A DNA stretch of 64,000 nt from Burkholderiaceae bacterium. GTDB lineage: Bacteria > Pseudomonadota > Gammaproteobacteria > Burkholderiales > Burkholderiaceae_C. The notes beneath the pieces are model-generated. The model saw only the letters and a list, made by a program, of their open reading frames with translations. It was not told the origin of the DNA and did not search any database. The stretch spans positions 25,064 through 89,063 of the forward strand of contig JAMLIT010000009.1 of the NCBI GenBank assembly GCA_023954035.1. Reading direction: 5' to 3'. The position numbers were made by a program, and so were the translations under genes. Position 1 is the stretch's first letter. The number at the start of each line of letters is the position of its first letter. Positions 19,893-30,971 of the stretch are shown piece after piece.

Positions 19893-19955
19893 ACGAATGC
19901 GCCCAGTCGGCCCGCGCGCTTCGGCGCGCGTTCGGGGGAGGTGATGTCGACAGGC

Positions 19956-19961
19956 TAAAAT
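19956..19961 (+). promoter_or_regulatory. Candidate -10 box of the thrS operon
   Basis: TAAAAT, which would start transcription near 19968, just before the Thr leader peptide. No convincing -35 hexamer is visible upstream, so this is tentative. Confidence 0.35.
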
Positions 19962-20002
19962 AAGAACGTGAATCCACCAGCAAGCAAGAAAAACTTTTGG
20001 TT

Positions 20003-20044
20003 ATGACACCGCGAACTACGTGGGAGAGATTGACTGGCCTCTAA
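20003..20044 (+). CDS. Threonine-rich leader peptide of thrS
   Basis: Thirteen-codon open frame encoding [13 protein letters not shown], with threonine at four of thirteen positions including the pair ACT-ACG at 20015-20020, then TAA. No good ribosome site is visible (only an A-rich AAGAAAAAC 9-15 bases upstream). The reading is supported by the RNA architecture around it. CGCGAAC (20010-20016), inside the Thr codons, is fully complementary to GTTCGCG (20053-20059); the CGCGC at 20056-20060 is in turn complementary to GCGCG of the terminator's left arm (20094-20098). This is the classic layout of ribosome-mediated attenuation. Confidence 0.6.
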
Positions 20045-20090
20045 GGCCAGAGGTTCGCGCCTGCTCGGTAGTTCTCACCCCTGCCACAAG

Positions 20091-20118
20091 AAAGCGCGTA
20101 TCGATTCCGCGCTTTTTT
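20091..20118 (+). terminator. Attenuator terminator in the thrS leader
   Basis: Perfect 8-bp stem AAAGCGCG / CGCGCTTT with a 9-nt loop, followed by TTT, G, TTTT. It lies 46 bases after the leader-peptide stop and 53 bases before the thrS start, so it controls entry into the thrS-infC-rpmI-rplT-pheST-ihfA operon. Confidence 0.75.
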
Positions 20119-20171
20119 GTTTTCTGAGGAAGCGCCGCGCGGTGGGTACACACGATTTGACAAGGATTCCC

Positions 20172-22091
20172 ATGATTCACATCACCCTTCCTGACGGTTC
20201 CCGACGCGAGTTCTCGGGGCCTGTCACGGTGGCCGAGGTTGCGGCCTCGATTGGCTCTGGTCTGGCCAAGGCAGCGCTTGCCGGAAAGGTGGGCGGCAAG
20301 GTCGTCGATACAAGTCACCGAATCGAAGAGGACAGTGTGCTGGCCATCGTCACTGCCAAGGATGACGAAGGCCTGGAGGTGATTCGCCACTCGACCGCGC
20401 ACTTGCTCGCCTATGCGGTCAAAGAGCTGTTCCCCGAGGCGCAGGTCACAATTGGCCCGGTCATCGAAAACGGCTTCTATTACGACTTCGCTTACAAAAG
20501 GCCATTCACACCAGAGGACCTCGAAGCCATTGAAAAGCGCATGGCGCAACTGGCTGCGAGAGACGAACCGGTCGTGCGGCGTGTACTGCCGCGCGATGAG
20601 GCGGTCGCGTATTTCAAGAGTCTGGGCGAACACTACAAGGCCGAGATCATTTCGAGCATTCCCAGCAACGAAGACGTCAGCCTATACCGCGAAGGGGGCT
20701 TTGAAGACCTGTGCCGCGGGCCGCACGTGCCCAGCACCGGCAAGCTCAAGCATTTCAAACTGATGAAAGTCGCTGGGGCCTATTGGCGCGGCGATCATCG
20801 CAACGAGATGCTGCAACGCATCTACGGTACCGCTTGGGCAAGCAAGGAGGAACTGCAGCACTACCTCACCATGCTCGAGGAAGCCGAAAAACGGGATCAC
20901 CGCAAACTGGGCCGGGAGCTGGACTTGTTCCATCTCGACGAACATTCGCCCGGCACCGTGTTCTGGCACCCCAAGGGTTGGACCGTGTGGCAGGAGGTCG
21001 AGCAGTACATGCGTCGCGTGTACCAGGACAATGGCTACCAGGAAGTCAAGGGGCCGCAGATTCTGGACGCCTCGCTTTGGGAAAAAACCGGTCACTGGGA
21101 CAAATACCGCGAAAACATGTTCACGACGGAATCGGAAAAGCGCGAGTACGCACTCAAGCCGATGAACTGCCCGGGCCACATCCTCATCTACAAGCAAGGC
21201 ATCAAGAGCTATCGGGATCTGCCGCTGCGATTGGGCGAGTTTGGCCAATGCCACCGCAATGAGCCCAGCGGCGGACTGCACGGCATCATGCGTGTACGCG
21301 CTTTCACCCAGGACGACGGGCACATCTTCTGCACCGAAGACCAGATACTGGAAGAATGCGCGGCGTTTACCAAGCTGCTGCAGCGCGTCTACCGCGACTT
21401 CGGGTTTGAGGAAGTGATCTACAAGGTCGCCACCCGTCCCGAGGCGCGAATCGGCTCGGATGAGTACTGGGATCGCACCGAGAGCGCTTTGATGGAGAGC
21501 CTGCGCCAGACCGGTTGCGAATTCGAGATCGCAAAAGGCGAGGGCGCGTTCTATGCGCCCAAGATCGAGTACACGCTCAAGGACGCGTTGGGCCGACAGT
21601 GGCAGTGCGGCACCATCCAGATCGACCCCAACATGCCGGAACGGCTTGGCGCCGAGTATGTCGACGAAGCGGGCGTGCGCCGCACCCCGATCATGCTGCA
21701 CCGGGCGATTGTCGGAAGTCTGGAGCGATTCATCGGTATTCTGATTGAGCAGCATGCCGGCGCGCTCCCGGTCTGGCTTGCGCCGGTCCAGGCTGCGATC
21801 CTCAACATCACCGATGCGCAGGCCGACTACTGTCGCGAAATTGCTGAAAAACTGGCTCAGGCGGTGCCCCACCATCCTTTGCGCGTGGCGCTGGACTTAA
21901 GAAACGAGAAGATTACGTATAAAATACGTGAGCATTCGTTGCAAAAGCTGCCCTTCATTCTGGTTGCTGGCGAGAAGGAGCGAGCAGCCGGAGCGGTTGC
22001 AGTGCGTGCCCGAGGCAACCAAGACCTTGGGATGATGCCGGTCGAAGAGTTCATTCAACGCATCACGCGCGCCATTGCCGACAAAGCTTGA
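20172..22091 (+). CDS. thrS: Threonyl-tRNA synthetase ThrS
   Basis: Class II synthetase charging tRNA-Thr, with editing of Ser-tRNA. It has 639 residues: N-terminal TGS domain (1-60), editing domain with [11 protein letters not shown] near residue 72, the catalytic domain with [12 protein letters not shown] and [13 protein letters not shown]-like motif 2 (the Cys and His zinc ligands), and the C-terminal anticodon-binding domain (about 535-639). The ATG at 20172 is chosen over the in-frame one at 20142 because AAGGA sits eight bases upstream and [10 protein letters not shown] is the family start. First structural gene of the operon; probably controlled by the Thr attenuator. Confidence 0.97.
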
Positions 22092-22107
22092 TCAGCCGTC
22101 ATTGCTT

Positions 22108-22129
22108 GGCTACACCGTTCGGTGAAGCC
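22108..22129 (+). promoter_or_regulatory. Hairpin in the thrS-infC spacer
   Basis: GGCT-A-CACCG / CGGTG-A-AGCC, a nine-pair stem with one A-A mismatch and a two-base loop. It lies 50 bases before the infC start and has no T-run, so it is not an intrinsic terminator. It may be an RNA-processing or translational control element. Confidence 0.35.
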
Positions 22130-22179
22130 GTGGCGCGTTGGCCCCAAGTGGAGGGCGTCCTAATTAAGAGGTGAGAACC

Positions 22180-22782
22180 ATAGCTACTGAATTTCGTGAT
22201 CGTCGCCACCGTGAAGAGCGCAAGCACCGCCTGAACCGTGAAATCATGGCCCCCGAAGTCCGCTTGTCGGGGCCGGACAATGAGCCCTTAGGGGTCGTCA
22301 GCCTGATGGATGCGTTGCGCATGGCGGGCGAGCTCGATGTGGATCTGGTGGAAATTTCCGCCACCGCCAACCCGCCCGTGTGCCGTTTGATGGACTATGG
22401 CAAGTTCAAGTACATCGAGCAAAAGCGCGCCGCGGAGGCCAAGGCCAAGCAGACGGTCATAGAGATCAAGGAAGTTAAGTTCCGTCCCGGCACGGACGAC
22501 GGTGACTACAACATCAAGTTGCGCAATATCCGGCGTTTCTTGGCCGAGGGCGACAAGTGCAAGATCACGCTGCGTTTTCGCGGCCGTGAGATCACGCACC
22601 AGGATCTGGGCTTGGCACTCTTGAACCGATTGCGCGACGATCTCGGCGATACGATTTTGGTCGAGCAGTTTCCCCGTCTGGAAGGGCGGCAGATGATCAT
22701 GATGATCGCGCCGGCCCGCAAAAAGACGGCAGCGGCACGCTCAGCGGAAGCGACTTCCGGTGCGGATGCCAATGCGTCCTGA
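22180..22782 (+). CDS. infC: Translation initiation factor IF-3
   Basis: Binds the 30S subunit, blocks premature 50S joining and checks the start codon. It has 200 residues from the proposed start: N-domain ([25 protein letters not shown]), the linker with the conserved [16 protein letters not shown], and the C-domain ([25 protein letters not shown]). The likely start is the ATA at 22180, seven bases after AGAGGTGAG; the in-frame GTG at 22171 is part of that ribosome site. Non-AUG starts are the rule for infC because IF-3 represses its own translation through them. Confidence 0.93.
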
Positions 22783-22806
22783 GACGCCGGTGTGGAGGAA
22801 TGGGGT

Positions 22807-22861
22807 TGCTCAGGCACGCGGTGCCTGAGCACTTGCACAGGAACACCGTTTTCGGTGTTCC
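22807..22861 (+). promoter_or_regulatory. Twin-hairpin leader upstream of rpmI-rplT
   Basis: Two strong adjacent hairpins in the infC-rpmI spacer: TGCTCAGGCAC / GTGCCTGAGCA (22807-22831, 3-nt loop) and GGAACACCG / CGGTGTTCC (22840-22861, TTTT loop). Neither has a T-run after it. L20 represses rpmI-rplT by binding a leader RNA in other bacteria; these hairpins are in the right place for such control, which is inference here. Confidence 0.5.
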
Positions 22862-22962
22862 AGCGTCGGCTGAAATGCCGGCAACAAAGAAGTGTCTCGG
22901 GGCCAGCAAGTTTGCAAGCTGTTTTGCAAACGCCTCACGAGCACAAACTAAGGAGCATTTTC

Positions 22963-23166
22963 ATGCCCAAGATGAAGTCCAAGAGCAGCGCCAAGAAGCG
23001 CTTTCGCGTTCGCCCGGGTGGCACTGTCAAGCGCGGCCACGCCTTCAAGCGTCACATCCTGACCAAGAAGACCACCAAGAACAAGCGCCACTTGCGTGGC
23101 ATCACGGCTGTCCATGAGACCAATATGGCCTCCATGGCACAGATGCTGCCCTTCGCTGGCCTGTAA
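22963..23166 (+). CDS. rpmI: 50S ribosomal protein L35
   Basis: 67-residue basic ribosomal protein. [19 protein letters not shown] and the [13 protein letters not shown] block are the L35 signature. The ATG at 22963 follows AAGGAG with proper spacing; longer in-frame extensions cross the leader hairpins and are not used. Always paired with rplT, whose start is 26 bp downstream. Confidence 0.97.
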
Positions 23167-23192
23167 TCAACGGACGAACAAGGAGTACTCCC

Positions 23193-23552
23193 ATGCCTCG
23201 CGTCAAACGTGGTGTCACGGCTCACGCCCGTCACAAAAAAGTTCTGGCCCTTGCCAAGGGTTTCCGCGGCCGCCGCGGCAATGTTTTCCGGATCGCCAAA
23301 CAGGCGGTCATGAAGGCTGGGCAATATGCCTACCGTGATCGCCGTGCCAAGAAGCGCGTCTTCCGCCGCCTCTGGATTGCCCGTATCAATGCCGGCGCGC
23401 GTGAACTGGGTCTGACCTACAGCCAGTTCGTGAGTGGCCTGAAAAAGGCATCCATCGAGATCGACCGCAAGATGCTGGCCGATCTGGCGGTGCACGACAA
23501 AGCGGCTTTCGGCAGCATCGTCGAACAGGTGAAGGCCAAGCTGGCCGCTTGA
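23193..23552 (+). CDS. rplT: 50S ribosomal protein L20
   Basis: 119-residue ribosomal protein needed for early 50S assembly and, in other bacteria, for repression of its own operon. [42 protein letters not shown] is the standard L20 N-terminus, followed by the conserved [28 protein letters not shown] precedes the ATG. Confidence 0.98.
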
Positions 23553-23565
23553 GCGAATCGCCAAC

Positions 23566-23624
23566 AGCTATTTTATTGATAGCTTTTAGCGCAATTACAG
23601 CAAGGGCTAGGGCTTGAAAAGGCA
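23566..23624 (-). repeat. Dispersed repeat copy 5, rplT-pheS spacer
   Basis: On the minus strand: TTTCAAGCCCTAGCCCTTGC, a spacer, GCGCTAAAAGCTATC, then AATAAAATAGCTG. It fills most of the rplT-pheS gap and supplies the left arm of the hairpin at 23601-23634. Confidence 0.65.
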
Positions 23625-23640
23625 CTAGCCCTTGTTTTTT
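23601..23640 (+). terminator. Intrinsic terminator/attenuator between rplT and pheS
   Basis: Perfect 10-bp stem CAAGGGCTAG / CTAGCCCTTG with a 14-nt loop and a six-T run, only 11 bases before pheS. It should reduce transcription from rplT into pheST. There is no Phe-rich leader peptide of the pheM type. The left arm lies inside repeat copy 5. Confidence 0.75.
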
Positions 23641-23651
23641 GAAGAAACCAT

Positions 23652-24704
23652 ATGAACGACCTGGATTCCTTGGTTGAGACTGCCCGGCAGGCGTTTGCGC
23701 AAAGCACAGCGCCCGCCGAACTCGAAAATGCGAAAGCCCGCTTTTTGGGCAAATCCGGGCGCATGACCGAACTCATGAAGGGCATGGCGCAGCTCTCGCC
23801 GGAGGAGAAAAAATCGCGCGGTGCGGCCATCAACCTCGCCAAGCAGGCTATCGAGGCCGCCTTGACGGCGCGACGCCAAGCCCTCTCAGAGGCCGAGTTG
23901 GAACGGCAACTGCAGGCCGAAGCGCTGGACGTCAGCCTCCCCGGACGTCAGCGGGGGCAGGGCGGTTTGCACCCAGTCTCCTTGACACTCGAGCGCATCG
24001 AGGGCCTCTTCGGCTCCATGGGATTTGAGGTGGCGGACGGGCCCGAGATTGAAACCGACTGGTTCAACTTTACTGCGCTCAATACGCCACAGGACCATCC
24101 GGCGCGCTCCATGCACGACACCTTCTACATCGAAGGCGGCGATGAACAAGCGCCCCACCTGCTGCGCACCCACACCAGCCCGATGCAGATTCGGCATGCG
24201 ATCGCCCATGTCAAGCGCCACCGCGCCGCACTGGACGCTGGCCAGGCGATCCCGGAAATTCGGGTCATCGCTCCCGGACGGACGTACCGTGTGGACAGTG
24301 ATGCCACCCACTCACCCATGTTTCATCAATGCGAGGGCCTGTGGATTGGGGAGAACGTCAGTTTCAAAGATCTGAAGTACGTCTTTACCGCCTTTTGCCG
24401 CCGCTTTTTTGAGACCGACGAACTGGTGTTGCGTTTTCGTCCCAGCTTTTTCCCGTTCACCGAGCCCAGTGCCGAAATCGACATCCAGTTCCAGCAAGGC
24501 CCACTGGCGGGACGCTGGCTGGAAGTGGCGGGTTCCGGCCAGGTGCATCCGAATGTGGTGCGCAACATGGGGCTTGACCCGGAGCGCTTCATCGGATTTG
24601 CCTTTGGCATGGGGTTCGATCGTTTGACCATGTTGCGCTATGGCGTCAGCGATCTGCGTTTGTTTTTTGACGGAGACATCCGATTTCTATCGCAATTCCA
24701 ATAG
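23652..24704 (+). CDS. pheS: Phenylalanyl-tRNA synthetase alpha subunit
   Basis: Catalytic subunit of the alpha2-beta2 class II synthetase. It has 350 residues: an N-terminal coiled coil that binds tRNA (about 1-90), motif 2 ([22 protein letters not shown]), [11 protein letters not shown] and motif 3 ([17 protein letters not shown]). The start ATG lies 11 bases after a strong hairpin with a T-run; the stem partly covers the translation start region. pheT follows after 72 bp. Confidence 0.97.
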
Positions 24705-24776
24705 GGCAATGCGGAGGCCCTGAAGTCTGGGGGCTTGTTCCGCAAGGCCAGCTTGTGACGTACGAACATTTTTCCT

Positions 24777-27221
24777 ATGCAATTTCCTGAATCCTGGCTG
24801 CGCGAATTCTGCAATCCGCCGTTGAGTTCCGCTGAGCTGGCGGACACCTTGACCATGGCGGGGCTGGAAGTCGAAGCGATGGAGCCTGTCGCTCCGCCCT
24901 TTGAAGGCGTGGTGGTGGGCGAAATCCGCTCGGCAGTACAGCACCCCGATGCCGATCGCCTGCGCATATGCCAGGTGGACGTGGGCCAGCCCGAGTGGCT
25001 GAACATCGTTTGCGGTGCGCCCAATGCCCGCCCAGGCATCAAGGTGCCCTGCGCACTGGTGGGCGCGCGGCTCCCGGCGGCAGACAACGCAGAGGCTTTC
25101 GTCATTCGCATCGGAAAGCTGCGTGGCGTGGACAGCCACGGCATGCTGTGCTCGGCCAAAGAACTCAAGCTTTCCGATGACCACGGCGGCTTGCTGGAGC
25201 TGCCGGACAATGCCCCGCTGGGAGCAGACGTTCGCCAAGTGCTGTCGCTCGACGATACGCTGTTCACGCTCAAGCTCACGCCCAATCTGGCGCACTGCCT
25301 GAGCGTGTATGGCGTCGCTCGCGAGCTGGCCGCGCTGACCGGTGCAAGACTCGATACGCCAGTCTTTCCAGCTGCGGCAGTGGACATCGAGGACACGCTC
25401 CCGGTTCAGATCAGCGCGCCGGATCTGTGCGGGCGGTTTTCTGGTCGCATCGTTCGCGGCTTGAACCCGGGTGCGACTACGCCGCCCTGGATGGTCGAGC
25501 GCCTGGCGCGCTGTGGCCAGCGAAGCGTTTCGCCCCTGGTGGACATTTCGAACTACGTGATGTTCGAGTTCGGCCGACCCTCCCACATCTTTGATCTGGA
25601 CAAGATCCACGGCGGTCTCGACGTGCGCTGGGCGGGGGCCGGCGAGTCGCTCACGCTGCTGAGCGGCGCCACCGTTGCGCTGGATGCCGACGTGGGCGTG
25701 ATCGCCGACGAAACGCAGGTGGAGTCGCTGGCGGGCATCATGGGCGGCTTGGCAACGGCGGTGTCCGACGAAACGAGGAACATTTACATCGAAGCCGCGT
25801 TTTGGTGGCCGCAGGCGGTGGCGGGCCGATCGCGCCGCTTGCGGTTTTCCACGGAGGCGGGACACCGTTTCGAGCGCGGCGTCGATCCGGAGCACACCGT
25901 GGAGCACATCGAACGCATTACCCAGTTGGTGCTCGACATTTGCGGCACGTCCGACTCGGTGTGCGGGCCGGTGGACGACCAAAAGCCGAGCATGCCCGAG
26001 CGCCATCCTGTGCGTTTGCGCATCGCACGTGCTGCCAAGGTAATCGGCATGCCTGTCTCACAAGCGCAATGCGTGCAAGTCCTCGAGCGTTTGGGTCTGC
26101 AAGTTGCGCAATCCGACGGGGAGCTGACAGTTCGCCCCCCAGCCTACCGTTTTGATCTGGCGCACGAGGAAGATTTGATCGAAGAGGTCGCGCGCATCGT
26201 CGGTTACGGCCAGCTGCCTGATACGCCTCCGCTCGCACCGGTCACGCCTATTCTGCGGGCTGAGCGCAAGCGCAGCCCGTTTGCCTTGCGGCGCCAGCTT
26301 GCCGTGCTGGGCTATCAGGAGACGATCAACTTCAGCTTTGTCGACGCCGATTGGGAACGCGAACTCGCAGGTGTCCGCGACCCCATCCGCCTGTTGAACC
26401 CGATTTCTAGCCAAATGAGCGTTATGCGCTCGTCCCTACTGGGTTCTTTGCTACAAGTTTTGAAATTCAACGTGGATAGACGTGCAGAGCGCGTGCGCGT
26501 TTTTGAGCTCGGCCGCGTGTTTTTACGCGACGCTGCAGTGGCCGAATCCGATACCACGGTGGCGGGCTACCGCCAACCCCAGCGTGTTGCAGGCCTTGCT
26601 TATGGGCCAGCCGACCGTGTGCAATGGGGTCTCGCTGGCCGCAACGTAGACTTTTATGACGCCAAAGGGGACGTCGAGGCCTTGCTGGCGCCGCGCAAGC
26701 CGGCTTTCGAGAGAGCGGAGCATCCCGCGATGCATCCGGGGCGCTGCGCGCAGATCTTGCTCGATGGCCGTCCTGTCGGTTGTGTCGGCGAGTTGCATCC
26801 CAAATGGCGGCAGTCCTGGGGGCTTGCCCAGGCCCCCGTACTTTTTGAGTTGGAGCTCGATGCGGTTCTGACCAAGCCCTTGCCTGAGTTCGCGCCCGTC
26901 GCGCGGCATCAGGCTGTGGAGCGCGATATTGCGGTGGTCGTGGGCGAAGACGTCACGCACGGCCAGTTGATGCAGTCGATCGCTTTGGCATTGGACGCCG
27001 CGATGCTGCGTGATGCGATTTTGTTTGATGTTTATCGTCCGAAATCCCTCAAGCGCGACGAGCCGTCTGGCGCCGTCGGCCTCGCACAGGGGGAAAAGAG
27101 CATGGCGATTCGCTTGGTGCTTGGAGGCGACACGACGCTTACGGAAGCTCAGATCGACGCGGCTGTCGCCTCTGTGGTCGAGCAATTGGCACTGCGTCAC
27201 GGCGCGCGCCTGCGGGTCTAG
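24777..27221 (+). CDS. pheT: Phenylalanyl-tRNA synthetase beta subunit
   Basis: 814-residue beta subunit. Visible parts are an EMAP-like tRNA-binding domain (about residues 40-150, with [12 protein letters not shown]), the B3/B4 editing domain (about 210-400), B5 (about 400-475) and the C-terminal ferredoxin-fold anticodon-binding domain ([21 protein letters not shown]). [16 protein letters not shown] is the conserved catalytic-like core segment. No frame break. ihfA starts 10 bp after the stop. Confidence 0.97.
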
Positions 27222-27231
27222 GAGAGGAACG

Positions 27232-27552
27232 ATGCAACGCGTGGAATTCACCGTCGATAGTCTGGAAACCCCTGCCTTGACCAAGGCGCAGCTTGCCGAC
27301 CTGTTGTTCGATCAGATTGGCCTGAACAAGCGCGAGTCCAAGGACATGGTCGATGCATTCTTTGACCTGATTGCGCGCAGCCTGGTCGATGGCGACGACG
27401 TCAAGCTGTCCGGTTTTGGCAACTTCCAGATTCGCACCAAGGCGCCACGACCTGGGCGCAATCCCCGCACCGGTGAGGCCATACCGATCGGCGAGCGCCG
27501 CGTGGTGACATTTCACGCGAGCAGCAAGCTCAAGGAACAGATTCAGGGCTAG
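27232..27552 (+). CDS. ihfA: Integration host factor subunit alpha
   Basis: 106-residue DNA-bending protein of the HU/IHF family; heterodimer with Ihf[29 protein letters not shown] forms the dimerisation helices; [26 protein letters not shown] is the DNA-contacting arm with the intercalating proline. GGAGAGG before the ATG at 27232 fixes the start; the longer upstream frame is shadow of pheT. Position after pheT is conserved across proteobacteria. Confidence 0.96.
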
Positions 27553-27661
27553 CTCTTGGAGAAGGCGTTGTTCGTTTTGTAACACCTGATGGCACAAAGC
27601 ACGCGTCTGCTGTAGGCTTGAAGGTTTGTTGCATCTCTGCGCGCTGCCGCGCATTGTTCCC

Positions 27662-28075
27662 ATGGGCCTCGTGCTTCCTTCGATACCAGCCAAGCGCTAT
27701 TTCACCATTGGGGAAGTAGCGGACCTGTGTGCGGTCAAGCCGCACGTGCTGCGTTACTGGGAGCAAGAATTCACCCAACTGCGACCCATCAAACGCAGGG
27801 GCAACCGCCGCTATTACCAGCACCATGAGGTGTTGATGATCCGGCGCATTCGTGACCTGCTCTACGACCAGGGTTTTACGATCAGTGGCGCGCGCAACCA
27901 ATTGCAGGAGGTATCGCCAGGCAGCATCCGGCACGCGGAGATTCCAGGCCATGACGGGGAGGCTTGCGACCTCGACGCGTCCGGCCTGGAAGCGCCCGGC
28001 ATTGAGTTGCCAGACATGGAAGCCGTGCGGCGTGAGCTGTTCGAAATCCGTGGCCTGCTTCAGGCTGCGGTGTGA
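27662..28075 (+). CDS. MerR-family transcriptional regulator
   Basis: 137-residue regulator. An N-terminal winged helix, RYFTIGEVADLCAVKPHVLRYWEQEF (about residues 10-35), is followed by the wing RRGNRRYYQHHEVLMIRRI and a short dimerisation/effector region with no metal-binding cysteines. This MlrA/YcgE-like type after ihfA is conserved in betaproteobacteria. Its target is unknown. The ATG at 27662 lacks a clear ribosome site, so the start is less certain. Confidence 0.85.
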   Translation: MGLVLPSIPAKRYFTIGEVADLCAVKPHVLRYWEQEFTQLRPIKRRGNRRYYQHHEVLMIRRIRDLLYDQGFTISGARNQLQEVSPGSIRHAEIPGHDGEACDLDASGLEAPGIELPDMEAVRRELFEIRGLLQAAV

Positions 28076-28083
28076 TTTGGACC

Positions 28084-28089
28084 TATAAT
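28084..28089 (+). promoter_or_regulatory. -10 box of the tRNA-Pro gene
   Basis: Perfect TATAAT eleven bases before the mature tRNA. The -35 region falls in the end of the merR gene and is not clearly conserved. Confidence 0.6.
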
Positions 28090-28100
28090 CCGAGGCTTGT

Positions 28101-28177
28101 CGGCGTGTGGCGCAGCCTGGTAGCGCACTTGCATGGGGTGCAAGGGGTCGAAGGTTCGAATCCTTTCACGCCGACCA
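28101..28177 (+). tRNA. tRNA-Pro (anticodon GGG)
   Basis: 77-nt cloverleaf. The acceptor stem CGGCGTG pairs with CACGCCG, with the discriminator and CCA encoded. D arm GCGCAGCCTGGTAGCGC; anticodon stem CTTGC / GCAAG with loop ATGGGGT, giving anticodon GGG; T arm with GGTTCGAATCC. The CGGCG acceptor start is typical of bacterial tRNA-Pro. Confidence 0.97.
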
Positions 28178-28194
28178 TTTGTTCGAATAGAGAC

Positions 28195-28228
28195 ACGGGT
28201 TACAACAGCCATGTTGTAACCCGTTTTT
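28195..28228 (+). terminator. Terminator after tRNA-Pro
   Basis: Perfect 12-bp stem ACGGGTTACAAC / GTTGTAACCCGT with a 6-nt loop and a T-run, 17 bases after the tRNA 3' end. Confidence 0.9.
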
Positions 28229-28283
28229 CATTTCTGCCGCCCCTGCCTGCATCCATCGGCCCAGGGGCATGAGGAGTCCGCCC

Positions 28284-30971
28284 ATGGACAAACATTATCT
28301 GACGCCGCTTTTTTCTCCTGAAACCATAGTCGTCTTCGCCGGCAGCGAAGAGCGCGAAGCCAGCCAGACCGTGCAGGGCCAGGCGCTGCGCGATGCCGTT
28401 CGGTCCCAGCGTTTCACGGGCAAACTGGTTTTTGTCGACATCGAAACCAAGGGGACCTTGGCCGATCTGGCGCAGGCGAGGGCGGATCTGGCCATCATTG
28501 CGCTGCCTGCTTCAGACGTGGCTGCGGCGCTTGAGCTCGCGGGTCGCATGGCATGCCGTGCCGCGCTCGTCATCTCCAGCGGCATCGGTCCGGAAGCGGC
28601 CTTGCAATTGGCCAAGTTGGCACAACGCGAAGGCGTGCATCTTTTGGGGCCCAATACCTCGGGCTTTCAGCGTCCCGCGCTTGGGCTCAACGCCAGTATC
28701 GCCGGGGCGCTCGCTCGCCCGGGTTCGCTGGCGCTCGTGTCGCAGTCCGGGGCGCTGACGGCTTCGATCCTGGACTGGGCAGACAAAAATGCCGTAGGCT
28801 TTTCGTCGGTGATCTCGCTCGGTCCCAACACCGCGGTCGACATCTCGCAGGTGCTCGACTATTTGGCCAGCGATCCGCAGACGCACAGCATCGTGGTCTA
28901 CCTGGAAGGTATTTCCAACGCCCGCAGTTTCATGAGCGCATTGCGCTCCGCTGCCAATGCGAAGCCGGTGGTGATGCTCAAGTCCGGCCGAAAGCCGGCG
29001 GGCAATGCGGCCGCGCAGACGCACAGCGGCGCCATCGTCGGCAGCGATGATGTGTTCGATGCCGCGCTGGCGCGGGCTGGCGCGGTGCGGGTTCGCTCCT
29101 TCGTCGAACTGTTCTCGGCGGCCAAGTGTCTGGCCTCGCGCTATCGACCCGTCGGTCGGCGCCTGGCGGTGGTGACCAATGGTGGTGGGCCTGGCGTGCT
29201 GGCAGCCGACTGGATCAATGAAATTTTTCTCGATCTTGGTCGTTTGTCGCAGGAATCGGTGGCCACACTGCAGCCGCAGCTACCGCCGCTGGCATCCTTG
29301 ATTGATCTGATTGATCTGTCAGAAGAAGCGGGCCCGGAACACTTTCGCATCGCCGTGGAAACGGCAAGCCGCGATCGTCAGGTCGATGGCGTTTTGGCCA
29401 TCTACTCGCCAAAAGCCGGAATTGATGCGACGCAAGTTGCCCGTGCGCTGGCCGACGTAAAGCGCAAGATGAGCAAGCCGCTGCTCTCTTGCTGGATGGG
29501 CGACACTTCTGTGGTGCCAGCGCGCGCGGTCCTGCTCGAAGCGAGCATTCCCAGTTTTCGCACGCCCGAGGCGGCCGTGGGAGCCTTTGGAAATATCGCG
29601 TCGTTCTATCAAAACCAACAGCTTTTGCTGCAAACCCCACCGCCGCTCTCGAACCTGGCAAAACCGGACATCGAGGGCGCTCGCCTGGTGATCGAGGGCG
29701 TGCTGGCCGAGCGGCGCAAGGTGCTGACCGAGATGGAATCGAAGACGCTGCTTGCTGCGTTTCACATCCCCGTGACCAACACCATTCTTGCGCGCAGTCC
29801 CACCGAGGCGATGATGATTGCGACGCAGCTGGGGTTTCCTGTTGCGTTGAAGATCGATTCGCCCGACGTCAGCCACAAGTCCGACGTGCAGGGCGTAGCG
29901 CTCAACATCATGAGCGGCGCCAGCGCGCGCGACACCTACACGGACATGGTCCAGCGGGTCGCAAAGCTGCTGCCGCAGGCCCGCATCAATGGCGTGACCG
30001 TGCAAAAGATGGCCCGAGCAAGGCGTGGACGTGAAATTTGCATTGGTCTGGTGACCGACGATCCCTTCGGTCCCGTCATCACCTTTGGCGCCGGTGGCAC
30101 CATGATCGAACTGATCAACGATCGGGCGATGGAGCTGCCTCCGTTGAATTTGTTCCTGGCCAGGCGGCTCATCGAACGCGCGCGTGTTGCGGAAACCCTG
30201 GACGTCTGGCGCGGAGCCGGGGCGGTGGACCGCAATGCGCTGGAACAGGTGCTGCTGCGTGTCTCCGAAATGGTCTGTGAACTGCCGCAGCTGCGCGAAA
30301 TGGACATCAACCCCCTGATCGTCGACGAAGAAGGTGTCGTGGCGGTGGACGCCCGGATCGTGGTTGAACATGCGCCCAGCCAGGGTTCCGGCGCTGCGCA
30401 ATACGGTCATTTGGCGATTCTGCCGTACCCGGCCCGGTTCCGTCAGGTGTGGCCGCTCAGCGGCGGCGGGGAATACACGGTGCGTCCGGTGCGCCCGGAC
30501 GACGCGCAAATGCTACAGGCCCTGGTGCAAAGCCTGTCACCGCAAAGCCGCTATTTCCGCTTCATTTCGTCCATGGCGCAGCTGCCGCCCAGCATGTTGG
30601 CACGGTTCACACTGATCGACTATGACCGCGAGATGGCTCTGGTGGCTATCCTGAAGGACCGCGCGCCAGGCGCGGACGGCGAGGTCGTCGAATCCGAGCG
30701 CATCGTCGGCGTGTCGCGCTACATCACCAATCCGGACCGCAGCAGTTGCGAGTTCGCCTTGGTCGTCGCCGACGATTTCACCGGGCGTGGTCTGGGGTCG
30801 CGCCTGATGCTGAGCATCATGGAGGTGGCGCGCGAGCGGGGCCTCAGCGAGATCGAGGGACTGGTGCTGGCCAACAATCCCGGCATGCTCAAACTGATGC
30901 GCAGCCTGGGTTTCACCGTCAAGGCCTACCCGGAAGACCCCGACTTCAAGCTCGTGACGCACCCGCTTTGA
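28284..30971 (+). CDS. Pat/PatZ-type protein lysine acetyltransferase (acyl-CoA synthetase-like plus GNAT)
   Basis: 895-residue fusion. The first 700 residues are an NDP-forming acyl-CoA synthetase-like region: CoA-binding Rossmann domain (residues 5-130), succinyl-CoA-ligase-like domain (SQSGALTASILDWA) and ATP-grasp domain (about 480-700). The last 160 residues are a GNAT acetyltransferase (YTVRPVRPDDAQML to GLGSRLMLSIMEVARERGL). In the PatZ/YfiQ family this protein acetylates lysines such as that of acetyl-CoA synthetase. The start is the ATG at 28284 with GAGGAG upstream. Single gene behind tRNA-Pro, convergent with putA. Confidence 0.9.
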   Translation: MDKHYLTPLFSPETIVVFAGSEEREASQTVQGQALRDAVRSQRFTGKLVFVDIETKGTLADLAQARADLAIIALPASDVAAALELAGRMACRAALVISSGIGPEAALQLAKLAQREGVHLLGPNTSGFQRPALGLNASIAGALARPGSLALVSQSGALTASILDWADKNAVGFSSVISLGPNTAVDISQVLDYLASDPQTHSIVVYLEGISNARSFMSALRSAANAKPVVMLKSGRKPAGNAAAQTHSGAIVGSDDVFDAALARAGAVRVRSFVELFSAAKCLASRYRPVGRRLAVVTNGGGPGVLAADWINEIFLDLGRLSQESVATLQPQLPPLASLIDLIDLSEEAGPEHFRIAVETASRDRQVDGVLAIYSPKAGIDATQVARALADVKRKMSKPLLSCWMGDTSVVPARAVLLEASIPSFRTPEAAVGAFGNIASFYQNQQLLLQTPPPLSNLAKPDIEGARLVIEGVLAERRKVLTEMESKTLLAAFHIPVTNTILARSPTEAMMIATQLGFPVALKIDSPDVSHKSDVQGVALNIMSGASARDTYTDMVQRVAKLLPQARINGVTVQKMARARRGREICIGLVTDDPFGPVITFGAGGTMIELINDRAMELPPLNLFLARRLIERARVAETLDVWRGAGAVDRNALEQVLLRVSEMVCELPQLREMDINPLIVDEEGVVAVDARIVVEHAPSQGSGAAQYGHLAILPYPARFRQVWPLSGGGEYTVRPVRPDDAQMLQALVQSLSPQSRYFRFISSMAQLPPSMLARFTLIDYDREMALVAILKDRAPGADGEVVESERIVGVSRYITNPDRSSCEFALVVADDFTGRGLGSRLMLSIMEVARERGLSEIEGLVLANNPGMLKLMRSLGFTVKAYPEDPDFKLVTHPL

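Follow-up and report, generated by a model that had tools for sequence, protein, structure and literature searches.

The leader in front of thrS is probably a ribosome-mediated (leader-peptide) transcription attenuator in the window, by which we mean the whole stretch of 64,000 nucleotides that was analysed. The gene, encoding threonyl-tRNA synthetase (20172..22091, + strand), was identified with NCBIfam TIGR00418 (721 bits), and dusA lies upstream of the leader in the divergent orientation. A TAAAAT box (19956..19961, +) is the probable -10 element of the leader promoter, with like boxes visible by eye in many relatives, and would place the transcription start at about 19968; a promoter scanner returned no sigma-70 match for the leader promoter, including at this box. 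Further along the same strand lies the conserved core GGTTATGACACCGCGAAC (18 nt, 19999..20016), which spans the start codon of a frame of 13 codons (20003..20044) that is also present in relatives, with its ATG at 20003, its TAA at 20042-20044 and Thr at codons 2, 5, 6 and 11. Segment 1, CGCGAAC (20010..20016, +), defined from folds and the family alignment, is located within this frame at the Arg and Thr codons. Predicted folds also contain a helper hairpin, CTGGCC-TCTAA-GGCCAG (20034..20050, +), carrying the leader stop codon in its loop, and visual inspection showed similar GGCC-stop-GGCC sequences in several family members. Segment 2, GTTCGCGC (20053..20060, +), a conserved island of the family alignment, could partner either segment 1, which it faces through GTTCGCG (20053-20059), or segment 3, which it faces through CGCGC (20056-20060). 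Segment 3, AAAGCGCG (20091..20098, +; AAAGCGCGGAC in many relatives), is the 5' arm of a terminator, and its GCGCG (20094-20098) pairs with CGCGC (20108-20112) of segment 4, CGCGCTTT, the 3' arm followed by the U-tract (20108..20118, +). Every segment named in the first-pass annotation, as well as the Thr-containing frame of 13 codons, the intrinsic terminator of 8 bp and the three competing pairings it had proposed before thrS, was found in the window sequence exactly where it had been placed.

The terminator combines an 8-bp stem, a 9-nt loop and a U-tract reaching 20118, and forms part of the minimum-energy fold of the window's leader; a simple terminator scanner, with its loop limit of 8 nt, did not list 20091-20118. 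An intrinsic terminator no more than 220 nt upstream of thrS was present in 60 of 80 relatives, compared with a mean of 1.2 after dinucleotide shuffling, these relatives being the best 80 of 581 thrS matches, taken from named records and not selected for a leader. Of the 29 loci that scored best among 60 genomes of the order, 22 had the same feature (shuffled, 0.5), as did 7 of the 29 that scored best among 38 genomes of the class outside that order (shuffled, 0.2), the window's own locus being left out. These data bear out the presence of an intrinsic terminator between leader and thrS, both in the window and in relatives.

Directly observed are the elements in the sequence, how far they are conserved, and the fact that the 2:3 and 3:4 arms match in a species-specific way. 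In a family alignment of 44 sequences, not fitted to structure, paired cells amounted to 276 of 308 for 1:2, 300 of 333 for 2:3 and 376 of 396 for 3:4, counts that are not independent, as the sequences share ancestry. These 44 are the nearer kin, by locus number, in a set of 78 sequences from which duplicates and two loci with the core and no terminator by rule (L014, L142) were excluded; a 77-sequence set further drops L004. Sliding the partner by 1-4 columns, for 1:2 or 2:3, lowered pairing from 0.90 to at most 0.54. When partners were permuted between species, the own 2:3 and own 3:4 pairings were better than those of all 5000 permutations, whether 77 sequences or 49 representatives were used. 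For 1:2, the outcome depended on the length given to segment 1: with 15 nt, 177 (77 sequences) and 29 (49 representatives) of the 5000 permutations matched the own pairing, and with 25 nt, 4195 and 847 did so. The own duplex surpassed the swapped-partner mean in 59 of 78 sequences for 2:3 and in 38 of 78 for 1:2, and single sequences reached the 0.05 level against composition shuffles in 29 and 21 of 77 cases, respectively. A search for long 1:2 duplexes could not tell true partners from swapped ones and was discarded as a failed test. Segments 2 and 3 change together across clades, as in GTTCGCGC/GCGCGGAC, AGTCCGCG/CGCGGACT, CGCTAGTCG/CGCGGCTAGT, ATAGCTGCG/GTGCGGCTGG and CGCTAGTCGAGG/GCGGCCCCTCG. 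In addition, where segment 2 recurrently reads GTCCGCG in place of GTTCGCG, an A-U pair of 1:2 becomes A-C (11 of 44 rows) and a G-U pair of 2:3 becomes G-C (12 rows); because the change breaks 1:2 and improves 2:3, the reading of 2:3 as the more constrained pairing is favoured. The complementarity expected in relatives therefore stands for 2:3 and 3:4, and the sequences suggest weaker support for 1:2.

Thr is the most enriched leader residue at the 60 terminator-bearing loci drawn from the best 80 of 581 thrS matches. An upstream ORF with at least three Thr in five codons was found at 33 of these 60 loci, against 8 for the runner-up, Val, and the Val-rich ORF matches look like tRNA-Val read-through; the order sample gave a weaker signal (Thr 7, Val 5, of 22 terminator loci). 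Among 71 distinct core peptides, Thr occupied codon 2 in 69, codon 5 in 71, codon 6 in 42, codon 7 in 27, codon 8 in 11, codon 9 in 15 and codon 10 in 3, together with codon 11 in 15 of 67 and codon 12 in 0 of 61. Codon 6 lacked Thr in the other 29 of 71, peptides such as MTPRTCKVSEPRR have Thr at codons 2 and 5 alone, and several clades have these two or little more. Less Thr-rich peptides, such as MTPRTRWSPSTCR and MTPRTCRSPATSR, also occur within the genus. A Thr-rich frame is thus conserved at codons 2 and 5, which nearly always encode Thr, and not consistently at codon 6. At codon 5, the codon is ACT in 62 of the 71 peptides. ACT accounts for 5% of its codon family in nine window genes, and ACA and CGA for 7% each of theirs, but rare leader codons need not mean sensitivity, since the E. 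coli thr leader uses the major codon ACC according to the accessible part of PMC1183508. In one genome of another order (L184), a short frame ending MSTTTAQR precedes a terminator and is perhaps an independent case.

Counting that of the window, 20 of the 26 genomes in the genus carry the core without mismatch, and with at most one mismatch it was found in 35 of 300 order genomes, representing 24 of 135 genera, where the reversed control gave 0. The window's genome has one copy at up to three mismatches (the reversed control pattern gave 2), which rules out a second core copy within that limit. Fetching loci by the core pattern yielded 52, of which 47 contained thrS, and in 47 of 47 the core lay 113-223 nt upstream of it. 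The five others comprise L098, an exact match on a locus of 1609 bases whose genome shows no thrS, and four matches with two mismatches, L087 (G005) and L103-L105 (G008 and G009), rejected as chance matches, with no thrS in the fetched DNA. In a set of 33 loci, made up of the window and 32 loci from the best 80 of 581 thrS matches, the wobble bases of the core codons ACA, CCG and CGA were identical in 33, 33 and 32 of 33, as were the three bases preceding the leader ATG in 33 of 33, whereas at these loci the four-fold codon columns of thrS averaged 0.653, with 0 of 67 invariant; this set was picked by core similarity (at most three mismatches), which inflates conservation, although exact matches dominate it. 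The bases before the leader ATG (19999-20002 in the window; L128-L134) read GGTT or CGTT, the common variation of the core, and GGT and CGT each correspond to an anticodon for Thr. A decayed core was noted at L004, 146 nt before thrS, with ATA for the leader ATG, two more changes and the terminator kept.

The conservation of the leader start has a feature of its own: GTTATGACACCGCGAAC is almost invariant, wobble bases included, though its pairing partner differs between clades, segment 1 staying constant while segment 2 varies. This is a constraint beyond what the textbook attenuation model predicts. It might reflect a second job beyond coding: the stretch could serve as a sequence-specific sensor where the leader starts, for instance by mimicking an NGU anticodon to which ThrRS binds, or by giving the start site and codons a context that suits slow decoding of ACA/CGA. 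We regard such a second job as unlikely.

The leader is unevenly distributed among relatives. Among the best 80 of 581 thrS loci, 22 have core, terminator and Thr, 10 core and terminator, and 2 the core without a terminator; of those lacking the core, 11 have terminator and Thr, 17 the terminator only and 18 neither. In the same order, the six classes count 2, 3, 1, 4, 13 and 6 loci among the 29 best-scoring of the order, and 0, 0, 0, 1, 6 and 22 among the 29 best-scoring of the class. The complete set of elements is thus frequent, although some betaproteobacteria do without it, and it hardly occurs in the class sample. Within the genus, 23 of 26 genomes show the core or thrS, 20 with the exact core and three with thrS and no leader peptide; the other three (G007, G015 and G024, all less than 80% complete) show neither thrS nor an exact core. 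The three leaderless genomes (G005, G013 and G014; loci L194-L196) have thrS, a TAAAAT-like box and a terminator about 30 nt after the box. None of their thrS loci contains the core at up to five mismatches, and the sole core match of G005, with two mismatches, lies away from thrS. Because these genomes possess thrS and a terminator without the leader, a minority of close kin have lost the leader or never acquired it. Loss of the frame in close relatives, which the first-pass annotation had named as evidence against its proposal, was found in part, three same-genus genomes being leaderless and the frame being unevenly Thr-rich.

Six more leaderless relatives among the best 80 of 581 (L015, L020, L024, L026, L027 and L052) keep a promoter-like box and the terminator, and in the last 100 nt before thrS the leaderless loci retain the terminator GCGCGG...CCGCGC. 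The same-genus leaderless thrS copies sit downstream of a frame ending ...STEEEQFH, which we take to be isocitrate lyase. This neighbour is also present at leaderless L015, L020, L024, L027 and L052, and L049 seems, by eye, to have it yet keeps the leader. Conversely, leaders without the core, viewed partly in 23 picked loci, have Thr runs before the same kind of terminator: MIQAPRTTTASERQ in Ralstonia, MFFPPARTTTRNFRPMSR, MFKRTTTTRISR, ...MFRTTTEAGN (from an inner ATG of a longer frame) and ...KHWRTTTTRHSHAS in Aquitalea. In Aquitalea, ACAACCCG pairs with CGGGTTGT, and the Vogesella counterpart pairs CCGTAT with ATACGG; the sequences differ and the pairing is kept inside or beside the Thr codons. 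A tRNA-Val(GAC) gene on the same strand before thrS was observed at 18 of 18 loci that were picked because it was seen there (L028, L032, L034, L036, L042, L044, L048, L057, L059, L061, L066, L069, L071, L072, L076, L078, L080 and L081), with two copies at two of them, and the leader or thrS may be co-transcribed with it at those loci.

Three other explanations were weighed against ribosome-mediated attenuation. That the elements resemble an attenuator by chance, in a GC-rich intergenic region, draws on the window's pairings, which are not significant alone, and is already contradicted by the core recurring in 24 of 135 order genera and preceding thrS at 47 of 52 fetched loci, and by terminators before thrS far above shuffled expectation; we consider it close to negligible. 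The region could instead supply a terminator that acts early and constitutively, or yield a stable 5' RNA, with no amino acid being sensed, in keeping with the box and terminator that persist without a leader peptide in six relatives from the best 80 of 581 and in three same-genus genomes. Such a function would leave unexplained the Thr enrichment, the conserved core and the co-adapted 2:3 arms of the leader-bearing loci, and appears quite improbable.

The remaining explanation gives the short frame a secondary role and makes the core the binding site of a trans-acting factor that decides termination, for instance ThrRS recognising the tRNA-Thr anticodon-like GGU/CGU beside the AUG. It would account for wobble bases that are near-invariant where thrS has no invariant four-fold column, for a segment 1 that stays as segment 2 changes between clades, for a usual first-base variant (GGT to CGT) that exchanges one Thr anticodon for another, and for clades whose leader has scarcely any Thr beyond codons 2 and 5. 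However, no anticodon-type stem was visible by eye around the core, and a weak GGU/ACC hairpin at the start codon, proposed by RNAalifold from 44 sequences, was rejected, as the CGTT variants break its pairing. Moreover, relatives retain the frame, its ATG and an excess of Thr at codons 6, 7 and 9, Thr runs exist in lineages without the core, and the apparent invariance comes from loci chosen by core similarity. We judge a trans-factor site to be improbable. Taken together, the relatives support Thr-codon attenuation of thrS by competing pairings, and do not support a leader universal in close kin.

If the leader acts as a ribosome-mediated attenuator, its promoter, translation, termination, response to Thr and stalled-ribosome geometry would fit together as follows. 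Transcription would begin near 19968. With plentiful Thr-tRNA, the ribosome would pass the Thr codons fast and arrive at the stop codon at 20042, where it would mask segment 2, or leave and let 1:2 form; either outcome would allow 3:4 to fold and transcription to terminate near 20118. With scarce charged Thr-tRNA, the ribosome would stall at codon 2, 5 or 6, and since its footprint reaches some 14 nt downstream of the A site, each of these stalls would cover segment 1. As segment 3 emerged from RNA polymerase, segment 2 would then pair with it, which would block the terminator and let thrS be transcribed.

The window's own copy may be a weakened member of the family. Its pairings alone are not strongly significant against shuffles (1:2, p 0.07; 2:3, p 0.36), so the case rests on the relatives. 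The window reads AAGCAAGAAAAAC where most relatives read AAG(A/G)GCGAGAAAGGCA, and GCGCGT where many read GCGCGGAC, and window 19980-19998 lacks the Shine-Dalgarno-like AAAGG that most relatives have. Its minimum-energy fold retains the terminator even with segment 1 cut away, so antitermination in the window would need kinetic folding. The genome is 89% complete, and a draft error in this copy is possible.

Other solutions to the control of thrS and of Thr genes are known. In E. coli, thrS is under autogenous control by a translational operator made of tRNA-like stems at the ribosome site, to which ThrRS binds. The window proposal shares the autogenous control of thrS, and no E. coli-type conserved tRNA-like stem was noticed by eye in relatives between the terminator and the thrS ATG. 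The thr operon leader (Rfam RF00506) senses Thr-tRNA through Thr codons and controls biosynthesis genes, whereas the window leader precedes thrS; its model scored 17.7 bits against the window, below the gathering score of 55. A T-box was rejected, with no match to such a family in Rfam at gathering or, within 19900-20200, at E values as high as 5. All other matches in that interval were likewise sub-threshold, and over window 1-64000 Rfam 15 returned a tRNA and nothing else at gathering score. The leader of E. coli pheST contains Phe codons.

Published precedents led us to moderate the statement that attenuation of thrS would be a different solution, which proved too strong. As far as the accessible portions of the reports go, leader-peptide attenuation is known for the synthetase operon pheST of E. 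coli, which resembles the window in this respect, and attenuation also for trpS and leuS of Streptomyces (PMC1262725); the thr operon leader has eight ACC codons (PMC1183508). In Streptomyces lividans, an actinobacterium, the thrL-thrS leader was annotated as an attenuator from RNA-seq and, like that of the window, has Thr codons in a short peptide ahead of thrS; it is a leaderless 18-aa peptide, MKRVRPFLETTPGFVPAR, with two Thr, for which the available text calls termination not clear (PMC8079986, Table 4). The window family differs in its core, its strong terminator and its co-adapted segments. The uORFC-8-2 motif before cysS of Rhodobacterales is a predicted attenuator that likewise combines a synthetase gene, a uORF whose cognate codons fall in the first stem, and a U-run terminator, and differs in its Cys codons, usually at positions 14-15, and in belonging to alphaproteobacteria (accessible part of PMC8632094). 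In B. cenocepacia, the tRNA-synthetase genes BCAL3373 and BCAL3436 are listed among short 5'UTRs in the part available of PMC5688073. Our search, in which subscription journals were thinly covered and which did not extend to the survey Vitreschak 2004, returned no report of thrS attenuation in betaproteobacteria. What appears new from these sequences is a conserved betaproteobacterial thrS attenuator, of a kind already known from other synthetase genes.

Downstream of thrS, and on the same strand, follow infC, rpmI, rplT, pheS, pheT, ihfA, an unnamed frame and tRNA-Pro(GGG) (22171..28177, +), named from NCBIfam and a tRNA scan; the unnamed frame (27626-28072) had no NCBIfam match. A crude scan detected no + strand promoter-like site in 22000-28300, and 12 terminator-like sites on both strands against 6.8 expected, among them 28195-28224 after the tRNA. 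Because these genes are co-directional and no + strand promoter-like site was found in that interval, it is possible that the attenuator also controls the genes for IF3, L35, L20, PheRS and IHF, a predicted coupling to Thr-tRNA supply that the first-pass annotation had put forward. If so, a Thr-tRNA switch would head this row of genes.

For many betaproteobacteria, the leader offers a testable answer to how ThrRS is adjusted, through ribosome stalling and not as in E. coli, with its ThrRS-mRNA operator, or in Gram-positives, with their T-box. A genus in which some members miss the leader and keep the terminator provides a natural comparison. If the start region also acted as a second sensor, thrS would be controlled by Thr-tRNA charging via the ribosome and, in addition, by direct contact at the leader start codon.
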